Assembly (NCBI GenBank): GCA_030741055.1
Contig: JASLWC010000010.1
Span: 1-33,890, forward strand
Length of the DNA stretch: 33,890 nucleotides
Reading direction: 5' to 3'
Source: Prochlorococcaceae cyanobacterium ETNP18_MAG_14
GTDB taxonomy: Bacteria; Cyanobacteriota; Cyanobacteriia; PCC-6307; Cyanobiaceae
The notes beneath the pieces were generated by a model. It made no database searches. It saw nothing but the letters and a program-made list of their open reading frames with translations, and had not been told where the DNA came from. Positions within the stretch are counted from its first letter, which is position 1, and each line of letters opens with the position of its first letter. Shown here in pieces: positions 29,485 through 32,460 of this stretch. A program made the position numbers and the translations under genes.

Positions 29485-30588
29485 TTAGAGTTTTGAGATC
29501 AGAATTGCTGATCTAACTGCAAACTCAAGCACTGCTTGAGCTGCAACTAACGCACCATTGCTAGCCAGAGACTGCTGAGTAGGTGAAACAATCTGTTGAT
29601 CTAGCTCCCATTCACCAAGTTCCAACGCATGACGCTCAAGTAGCCGATGAGCGGCATAGCGCTGCAAGCCATCAATTAACGCCTTGGACTCCGCAAAACC
29701 TTCCCGCTCAAACACATGAAGCCCTACTCCCAGGCTAATTGCTTCACAAAAGCTGCTGTAGCCGGGCTTGCCAAGATGTCTTGCGCAAAATGGGAGCGCA
29801 TCCAAGACAAGGCTTGATTCAGGTAGATAAATAACGTTTTCAGGCTGTTGATCAGCAAGAGAGGTGTTTGCTGATCGAGGTTGAGGCACCAAAAAGAGAT
29901 GATCAGGCCAACGTCTGAACAGATCGGGCTTTAGAGCAAAACCCATTCCGCCAAAGCCCACCATCACAATTGGCGCATTGCAAGAAGCCAATTTCTCTTG
30001 GAGTGCAATAGGTAATGGTCGAGGCTTTGCAGCTGTTATACCAATGCTCTGCTCTGGCACACCCCAGTCCATTTTCAATGAAAAAGGACATCGCAACAAG
30101 TGATGTCCCCTTGCGTACTCAGTTGCCGCGGCTTCTGCATGGGCAAGAAAATAATCACCGAGAGGGTGATATATCTCATCCCAGCCAAAGTTACCCATCC
30201 ACAACAAAGGAACACCTGCTTGATCTGCCAACTCAGCAGCAGCCGGAGGGATATCAGCAAGAATCATTGCTGGGATTTGTTGAGAGCGAATCCAAGCAGC
30301 CTCAGCCGAAATCTGGGCAGGGTTACTTATTTCAAGTTCATGGAGTGCCTTAAGAGTGGCTGAGCTATCAATGCCAAAGGCATGGGTCTGAACCATGCCC
30401 ACATCCCAACGCAACCTGCGGTGTTCAAACGGGACAGCTCTAAATACAAGGTTCAGAAATCTTTGATCAACATCAGTACTAACCACCAAGCGCAGATCTG
30501 GATATAGACGGTGAAGTTCAGTTAATACAGCAGCTTGACGAGCAGCGTGGCCATAGCCATGGCTGCTCAAGCAGAGGTAGATCAGCAC
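29485..30588 (-). CDS. GT-B-like glycosyltransferase family protein
   Basis: A 367-residue protein that looks like a GT-B glycosyltransferase of the MurG/UGT type. It opens LIYLCLSSHGYGHAARQAAV, with the SHGxGHxxR motif of nucleotide-sugar glycosyltransferase and arabinokinase N-terminal domains. The middle has MVGFGGMGF after a linker, and the C-terminal part has HLGKPGYSSFCEAISLGVGL, resembling the donor-binding motif (KxGxxSxxEA). Donor and acceptor unknown. The start is GTG at 30588, and its first codons overlap the stop of the upstream metallophosphoesterase gene by 7 bp, so the two are translationally linked. Confidence 0.7.
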   Translation of the reverse strand: MLIYLCLSSHGYGHAARQAAVLTELHRLYPDLRLVVSTDVDQRFLNLVFRAVPFEHRRLRWDVGMVQTHAFGIDSSATLKALHELEISNPAQISAEAAWIRSQQIPAMILADIPPAAAELADQAGVPLLWMGNFGWDEIYHPLGDYFLAHAEAAATEYARGHHLLRCPFSLKMDWGVPEQSIGITAAKPRPLPIALQEKLASCNAPIVMVGFGGMGFALKPDLFRRWPDHLFLVPQPRSANTSLADQQPENVIYLPESSLVLDALPFCARHLGKPGYSSFCEAISLGVGLHVFEREGFAESKALIDGLQRYAAHRLLERHALELGEWELDQQIVSPTQQSLASNGALVAAQAVLEFAVRSAILISKL

Positions 30589-31448
30589 GGCATAACAGTT
30601 GATTTTGAACTCTGAAAGAGAGTTTGTTCATAAGCCACTGATGCATCAGGAAGGAACCAACGATGACTTGCGGCACTCAGCTGACCATCGACAAACTCGA
30701 CCCAGGAAAGATGACATAACTCACGTCCAGAGGGATCAAGGCCTCGCCTGGGCACACATGCTGCATTGAGAAAGACCGTGCCAAAGCGATCCTGTACAAA
30801 CGTTTGCCGACAACCCTGACCACGTTTGAGTTCATGGTGCATGTGACCAAAGACAACCAACTGGGGCACACGATGCTTACGGATACGATCAAGAGCTATA
30901 GCCAGATCCTGGTCACCCCAGTCGATCGCAGGGGCTTTCCAATCTCGACCACATGGGCTCTGCATGTCTGAGCCGAGTCCAGTCGGACCTGAATGCGCCA
31001 AGACGACAAGTGGCCATTGAGCGGGAGCCTTCATGGCGGCCTCAACGATCCGATCTGCCGAATCATTTACCGACATAGGCCCAAAGTTTGCCTCAACAGC
31101 ACTAGAAAGATAAAAACCACCACCAGAACTGCAAGGTCGGGCTCCTACTACTGCTACATGAGGGGACCGCCACTGACGCAATCCCCAACCACAATGACGT
31201 TCACCTAATAATTTCAATTGTCGGCTCAGGATTTCGCCGGTTTGGTCGCGACCGCGGTCATGATTGCCGAGAATTACCGCTACAGGTAGAGGAAGTTGCT
31301 GTATAGCCTTAACCAACTTGAAATCCCCGTCGCTGAGATCACCAACGAAGAGCACTGCATCAGGTTGAAGTTGTATCAACAGATCTCGATCATCAGCCAC
31401 CCAGGCACCATGTAAGTCTCCAACAATGGCAAGGCGTAAAACTGACAG
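30582..31448 (-). CDS. Metallophosphoesterase (cyanobacterial/plastid TIGR04168-like), non-canonical start
   Basis: Calcineurin-like phosphoesterase of about 288 residues. Metal-binding motifs seen in order: GDLHG, LFVGDLSDGD, ILGNHDRG, VVLAHSGPTG and VVFGHMHHEL, a complete set. The first, GDLHG, is encoded upstream of the first ATG/GTG/TTG (GTG at 31400). In frame upstream there is no such codon before a TAA at 31458-31460. A CTG at 31448 would give MSVLRLAIVGDLHGAW, a good family N-terminus, so I place the start there, tentatively. It resembles a family shared by cyanobacteria and plants; substrate unknown. The 3' end overlaps the glycosyltransferase gene by 7 bp. It diverges from nadA by 43 bp. 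Confidence 0.75.
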   Translation of the reverse strand: MSVLRLAIVGDLHGAWVADDRDLLIQLQPDAVLFVGDLSDGDFKLVKAIQQLPLPVAVILGNHDRGRDQTGEILSRQLKLLGERHCGWGLRQWRSPHVAVVGARPCSSGGGFYLSSAVEANFGPMSVNDSADRIVEAAMKAPAQWPLVVLAHSGPTGLGSDMQSPCGRDWKAPAIDWGDQDLAIALDRIRKHRVPQLVVFGHMHHELKRGQGCRQTFVQDRFGTVFLNAACVPRRGLDPSGRELCHLSWVEFVDGQLSAASHRWFLPDASVAYEQTLFQSSKSTVMPC

Positions 31449-31491
31449 AACGAATGCTTAGGCTGAAGACATCCTGCCCCAGCAAGAGCAA

Positions 31492-32460
31492 ATGACCGCT
31501 GCTTCCGCCGCCGAGACGGTCTCACCGGTCCCACTGAGCAAGACTGAATTACGAAGCGCCATAAACGAGCTGCGTAATGAGCGAAATGCTGTAATTCTTG
31601 CGCACTATTACCAAGATCCAGAAATTCAAGATATCGCTGATTTTATCGGCGATTCATTGGAACTTTCACGAAGAGCCGCTGATACAAATGCTGAGGTGAT
31701 TGTATTTTGCGGTGTTCATTTTATGGCAGAGACAGCAAAGATTCTTAGCCCAGAAAAAACTGTGCTGATACCAGATCTTGATGCGGGATGCACCTTGGCT
31801 GACGATTGCCCAGCTGATGAATTTGAAAAATTCCTTAATGAACACCCAAATCATATTGTGGTGAGTTACATCAACTGCAGTGCAGCCGTTAAAGCTCTAA
31901 GTGATCTTATTTGCACCAGTAGCAATGCTGTGCATTTGGTAAATCAATTACCGAAAGATCGTCCGATACTATTTGCCCCAGACCAGAACCTTGGGCGCTG
32001 GGTACAACGTCAGAGTGGACGTGAGCTGACCTTCTGGCCAGGGAGGTGCGTAGTACATGAGACATTTAGTGAGGAAGCTCTACTAAAATTAAAGATCAAG
32101 CATCCACAAGCAGAGGTTATTGCACATCCGGAATGCCTTGAGAATCTGCTTGATCTTTCTGACTTTATTGGTTCAACAAGTAAATTACTAAGACACTCTG
32201 AGACTAGTACCTCTAAAGAATTCATTGTTCTTACTGAGCCGGGAATAATTCATCAAATGAAATTGAAAATGCCTAACAAAAGATTCATCGAAGTGCCTGG
32301 TATCGATGGTTGTAGCTGTAATCAATGTCCTTACATGAGATTAAACACCCTAGAAAAACTCTGGGTATGCATGAACAGTATGGAACCCACATTAGAAATG
32401 GATGACGAGCTGAGATTAAAGGCACTAGTGCCTATAGAACGAATGCTAGAAATGAGTTGA
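31492..32460 (+). CDS. nadA: Quinolinate synthase NadA
   Basis: Iron-sulfur enzyme of de novo NAD synthesis: iminoaspartate + dihydroxyacetone phosphate gives quinolinate. 322 residues. Seen: ILAHYYQ (35-41), [36 protein letters not shown] (96-106), [16 protein letters not shown] (211-215) and [10 protein letters not shown] (273-282). The probable [4Fe-4S] ligands are Cys100, Cys215 and Cys279. ATG at 31492. Followed by a 434-bp AT-rich gap with no clear terminator. nadB and nadC are not in this window. Confidence 0.96.

Follow-up and report, generated by a model that had tools for sequence, protein, structure and literature searches.

A CTG codon conserved across a Prochlorococcus-type clade as the probable start of a cyanobacterial metallophosphoesterase gene

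Conserved non-canonical start codons of bacterial genes are few, those found in print being AUU/AUC in infC and GUC in sigR. The infC gene of Escherichia coli starts with AUU and is autoregulated through IF3, the sigR gene of Streptomyces starts with GTC in 32 of 34 species and with GTT in the other two, and the non-canonical starts of both genes are repressed by IF3, according to the available part of PMC5472188. CUG is hardly ever a start codon in bacteria. Its complexes with the initiator tRNA are less stable than those formed with AUG, GUG or UUG (PMC11497404, available part).

In this study, we analysed a 33,890-nucleotide stretch of DNA (the window) from Prochlorococcaceae cyanobacterium ETNP18_MAG_14, in which a CUG is very probably the real start of a metallophosphoesterase gene, to judge from its orthologues (Table 1). 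The gene belongs to the known kind of conserved non-canonical starts, in that the complete protein cannot be read from an ATG, GTG or TTG and the exceptional codon is conserved. As in sigR, the non-canonical start is found clade-wide and the gene may be coupled to the next one; unlike sigR, for which the available part of PMC5472188 describes GTC, a strong RBS, a sigma factor and proof by experiment, the codon here is CTG, no SD-like motif is evident and the start is predicted from sequence comparison. With E. coli infC (same part of PMC5472188) it shares a start of the kind against which IF3 discriminates, but both the codon and the gene are different, and infC was rejected as a second case among cyanobacteria because its start in 18 genomes of the family was ATG in 17 and TTG in one. 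The E. coli complexes studied in vitro likewise have CUG and initiator tRNA in the 0 frame with weak first-position pairing, but in that work the tRNA was a variant and a model mRNA took the place of a natural conserved gene (PMC11497404, available part). Our searches of the open-access literature on CUG/CTG starts in bacteria, Prochlorococcus and cyanobacteria found no report of this start, no description of a clade-wide CUG and no mention of the protein family TIGR04168.

The open frame of the phosphoesterase spans positions 31457-30582 of the minus strand and, from the preceding stop, reads TAA(31460-31458) GCA TTC GTT CTG(31448-31446) TCA GTT TTA CGC CTT GCC ATT GTT GGA GAC TTA CAT GGT, with no ATG, GTG or TTG between that TAA and the GDLHG motif. 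The first-pass annotation of the window had placed GDLHG in frame and 5' of the first usual start codon, which the frame reading bore out; its list of upstream codons (GTT, CTG, TTA, CTT, ATT) was right in holding no canonical start but was selective, as GCA, TTC, TCA, CGC and GCC are also present. The first canonical codon, GTG 31400, lies seven codons past the G of GDLHG and corresponds to residue 17 of the protein counted from CTG. Both strand 1 (residues 3-10 in the structural model) and the DxH motif precede it, and initiation there would cost the protein these two elements.

Table 1. Features of the metallophosphoesterase locus (positions in the window).
Feature	Position	Strand	Remarks
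Downstream ORF, 367 aa, GTG start	29485..30588	-	Overlaps the phosphoesterase stop by 7 bases
Metallophosphoesterase gene (TIGR04168 family)	30582..31448	-	288 codons plus stop, counted from CTG
GTG, first canonical in-frame codon	31398..31400	-	Rejected as start; absent from the ten commonest codons of its column
GDLHG, first metal-binding (DxH) motif	31407..31421	-	5' of the first canonical start
CTG, probable start codon	31446..31448	-	CTG in 120/133 window-clade loci; 83 CTG loci without canonical alternative
In-frame TAA, upstream bound of the phosphoesterase ORF	31458..31460	-	
Conserved intergenic block GGGCAGGATGtcttcaGCCTAA	31458..31479	-	Column profile
nadA, quinolinate synthase, divergent neighbour	31492..32460	+	ATG start here; PF02445 400 bits, NF006878 465 bits

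By score, motifs and modelled fold, the ORF is classified as a calcineurin-like metallophosphoesterase, its activity being predicted. It scored 48.9 bits against PF00149, above the gathering cut-off of 21.5, and 355 bits against NCBIfam TIGR04168 (curated cut-off 200). The metal motifs of calcineurin-like metallophosphoesterases are DxH, GDxxD, GNHD and GHxH, found here as GDLHG, VGDLSD, GNHD and GHMH; most of their positions were invariant in an alignment of six sequences, including D11 and H13. The AlphaFold2 model built from this six-row alignment had a mean pLDDT of 82.5 and a pTM of 0.87, and Foldseek related it to purple acid phosphatase, TT1561, aq_1956 and Mre11 (E 1e-7 to 1e-3, TM about 0.5). 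By sequence, phmmer matched no solved structure at E 0.1.

A search for related loci in genome contigs gave five loci, and 209 loci of relatives were fetched, two of them bearing the name Prochlorococcus. All but two (L171 and L186, dropped for want of an N-terminal match) reached the N-terminus, which left 207. Once 23 outgroup loci from other cyanobacterial families had been set apart (184) and three identical loci removed (181 distinct), L173, with TTG and a broken frame, was omitted from the alignment, giving 180 aligned orthologues. These are a selection, since the match is present in 351 of 400 genomes of the family, and the very similar low-GC genus g18 accounts for eight counted loci. 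A FastTree tree with midpoint rooting, from which the first eight alignment columns were excluded, split the 180 loci into a window clade (n = 133, coding GC 0.31-0.67) and a sister clade (n = 47, GC 0.64-0.77).

The column of CTG 31448, nine codons before GD, read CTG in 121 of the 180 loci, TTG in 19, ATG in six, ACG in two, GTG in two and other codons in 30. The first-pass annotation had proposed both a genuine CTG start at 31448 and a comparison of this codon in relatives, and the comparison strongly supports the proposal. Within the window clade the counts were 120 for CTG, four for TTG, one for ACG and eight for other codons; six of these eight loci have a longer N-terminus with a CTG four or eight codons upstream (at -13 in L042, L070, L072 and L075, at -17 in L082 and L133), and the remaining two carry ATG at -11 (L049) and GTG at -14 (L050). 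The sister clade showed TTG in 15 loci, ATG in six, GTG in two, ACG and CTG in one each and other codons in 22, most of these last having a canonical start elsewhere. Among more distant cyanobacteria ATG or GTG was mostly found, somewhat farther upstream. The ACG of the window clade belongs to a single-contig genome (L008, G003:C1:718644-719492) with no canonical alternative, and its close relatives L006 and L007 have CTG.

In 83 of the 121 CTG loci there were zero canonical codons between the stop and GDLHG, and the sole start-like codon common to all 83 was CTG; codons 5' of it varied freely and those 3' of it varied mostly synonymously. The first canonical codon downstream lay 2 to 48 codons past the G of the motif in these loci, at scattered places, and therefore they have no shorter start in common. 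Orthologues starting at GTG 31400, which the first-pass annotation had named as evidence to the contrary, were not what we found: the ten commonest codons of that column (104 of the 133 clade loci) exclude GTG, and this codon was rejected as a start because it is not conserved. The ATT suggested as another start was also rejected, since it stands in an ordinary Ile column (ATT 60, ATC 16 and ATA 7 in the 83 loci).

Two further readings bear on the same counts. The window's genome, an assembly of 140 contigs that is 79% complete, could conceivably carry a point mutation or sequencing error (both put forward earlier), an assembly error or a pseudogene, but the codon is the same in 120 of 133 clade loci, single-contig genomes included, and the ORF is intact with all metal motifs, which makes such a defect extremely improbable. 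Because CTG recurs in 121 orthologues, 83 of them without a canonical start, chance or error as its source in the window can be excluded for practical purposes. It must also be considered that translation might begin at the upstream in-frame ATG (31472-31470) and reach the CTG by stop read-through or by termination-reinitiation. ATG NNN NNN GCC TAG/TAA stands ahead of CTG in many higher-GC members, and 52 of the 121 CTG loci have an in-frame ATG between -45 and -1; however, no frame of that interval contains an ATG in 26 of the 121, and in most AT-rich members the ATG is gone but the CTG persists. Pure read-through is unlikely and reinitiation would use CTG as the start anyway. This route has a very slight probability.

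The codon was conserved and resisted change across the clade, and it is from this conservation that we infer initiation at the CUG itself. CTG was retained from a coding GC of 0.67 down to 0.31. Below a coding GC of 0.36 it made up 0.4% of the internal Leu codons of the gene, yet it occupied the start column in nine of nine loci; between 0.36 and 0.42 the internal share was 5.5% against 47 of 49 at the start column, the other two being TTG. When low-GC representatives were thinned to <80% identity, CTG remained in 24 of 26 and TTG in two. Thirteen conserved Leu columns of this gene had 34-56 changes on the tree; the start column, counted over the 150 rows with NTG or ACG, had 10. Such conservation across a very diverse group of marine picocyanobacteria suggests that the codon matters. 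Nevertheless, some canonical codon lies within -25..-4 in 28 of the 120 CTG loci of the window clade (nine of them with TTG at -6), and therefore CTG need not be the sole start there; additionally, CTG has become TTG in four clade loci, and CUG is therefore not indispensable.

According to the best explanation, the CUG start would be read by the ordinary initiator tRNA to give M-S-V-L-R-L-A-I-V-G-D-L-H-G..., with the di-metal site whole. Selection would keep CUG in the Prochlorococcus-type clade, though a single transition would give the better start UUG, the likeliest reason being that weak, IF3-discriminated initiation would hold the enzyme at a low level. Low expression, as for infC, had also been suggested by the first-pass annotation and is plausible. 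There is about an even chance that CUG is kept for such a low, IF3-sensitive level, a proposal made by analogy with the lower stability of CUG complexes and the repression of the sigR and infC starts by IF3. It is somewhat unlikely, on the other hand, that CUG is the start but persists by neutral inertia and not by selection for weak initiation. A gene already starting at CUG can readily change only to TTG, GTG or ATG, and the first of these did arise in the four clade loci mentioned; but TTG is one C to T transition away and AT-biased genomes push in that direction. Moreover, CUG starts are very rare in a survey that, in its available part, counted their origin from 2 of 61,358 ancestral AUG and 1 of 2,468 ancestral UUG starts (PMC5622118), and with changes to CUG so rare its lasting retention is unexpected. 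A clade-wide CUG is a natural case on which to ask whether selection acts on weak initiation as such. Strains of the genera Prochlorococcus and marine Synechococcus exist in culture, and therefore the start is directly testable.

The sequence context around the CTG fits cyanobacterial initiation. A pyrimidine was found at -1 in 95% of the 121 CTG loci; YY stood at -2/-1 in 74%, other in-frame pairs giving 6-51%. A di-pyrimidine before the start is a proposed initiation signal of cyanobacteria (PMC5622118, available part). The second residue was T, S or K in 115 of the 121 loci. No SD-like motif was evident between -18 and -5, where GGAG, AGGA and GAGG each occurred in one of the 121 loci. An altered initiator tRNA was rejected since the anticodon stem is standard, the exact pattern GGG-CAT-CCC being present in genome G000 and, in all, in 29 of 36 genomes.

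The rarity of such starts was assessed in 400 kb samples of two AT-rich genomes, G014 (GC 0.35) and G021 (GC 0.31), in which 210 ORF pairs were matched, or 188 once shadow ORFs were removed. Four of the 188 pairs were flagged. The phosphoesterase lacked a canonical start ahead of its first conserved block in G014 as well as in G021, two other pairs lacked it in a single genome each (one in G014, the other in G021), and the fourth pair had an ATG within the block. With this last pair set aside, the phosphoesterase was the only one of the 188 without a canonical start before the conserved block in both genomes, in a test that misses genes with poorly conserved N-termini, such as nadA. In the G021 sample, the conserved RIEAVLYLKG block of ORF B313, which we take to be ScpB-like, is not preceded by a canonical start.

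The divergent position of nadA, found in 179 of 180 loci, raises another explanation, namely that CTG is conserved as a DNA element of the nadA promoter and that translation of the phosphoesterase begins at another place. Conservation of the intergenic block is high, and this block probably contains that promoter on the plus strand. In the six loci with a longer N-terminus (L042, L070, L072, L075, L082, L133) the spacing of CTG to the block was kept while the coding region grew, and the 28 clade loci noted above retain CTG despite a nearby canonical codon. The stretch from CTG to nadA is short and conserved as DNA, and therefore part of the constraint could be on the promoter. However, 46 of 47 sister-clade loci retain the divergent nadA, yet CTG occupies the column in none of the 33 that have a canonical start elsewhere, 21 of them having unrelated codons. 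Codons that replace CTG in the column are mostly other start codons (CTA and CTC are absent, CTT occurs once), CTG stays in low-GC genomes although the block upstream of it is altered, and a role confined to the promoter would leave 83 loci without a start ahead of the catalytic motif. A promoter element alone is quite improbable; the role as start codon is far more likely, some shared constraint being possible. A canonical -35 box of nadA overlapping the CTG was considered by hand and rejected: the distance between TGACA and the likely -10 is 22 bases, and the sequence in many members is CTG-ACA, CTG-ACG or CTG-AAG.

The starts of nadA were scanned in 130 clade loci, three more having no recognisable nadA motif; the scan covered the open frame ahead of the AILAHYY core, starting at most 42 codons upstream and ending 9 codons short of the core. 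In 30 of the 130 the scanned frame held no ATG, GTG or TTG. Fourteen of these had an in-frame CTG and 16 read CTA-ATT or CTT-ATT, where relatives show CTG-ATT or ATG. In AT-rich members nadA, too, may start at non-canonical codons. At the position of the window's ATG, the nadA of L040, L018, L044, L059, L085, L131, L031 and others has CTG, CTG-ATT or CTA-ATT, and the high-AT L031 group reads CTG-ACC there with a TTG further in. It is doubtful that both genes are under one translational control based on the start codon, with the phosphoesterase starting at CUG and, in AT-rich Prochlorococcus-type genomes, nadA at CUG or AUU; if so, IF3 activity or the state of the ribosome would set the levels of quinolinate synthase and phosphoesterase together. 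In many loci the 5' coding region of nadA (window 31513-31533 and orthologues) has kept, by eye, DNA resembling ACGGTTTCACCGGTTCC in which an AACCG/GACCG unit is repeated and which may be an operator.

The start also bears on the family model. TIGR04168 is a hypothetical equivalog that begins at residue 24 of the CTG-start protein, past the DxH motif, and at residue 21 of an outgroup fragment containing that motif. Therefore, the model describes a protein without its first metal motif, whereas the CTG-start protein, which scores above its cut-off, has the motif. We infer that TIGR04168 was built from truncated annotations, and the CTG start may explain why the first active-site motif is absent from the standard family model. 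Gene models restricted to ATG, GTG and TTG lose this motif and would be annotation artefacts. The clade-wide CUG also suggests that gene finders so limited strip the first catalytic motif from a whole protein group; the loss may have entered the curated model.

The 367-aa product of the downstream ORF had no Pfam or NCBIfam match. A same-strand homologue was present in 52 of the 82 loci with enough flank, 37 of them with the 7-base overlap that is also seen in the window, and therefore translational coupling with the phosphoesterase is possible. Finally, the phosphoesterase was split over frames in L185 (G162; three matches) and L173 (G065; two matches), both from nearly complete genomes, and the gene may therefore be dispensable.
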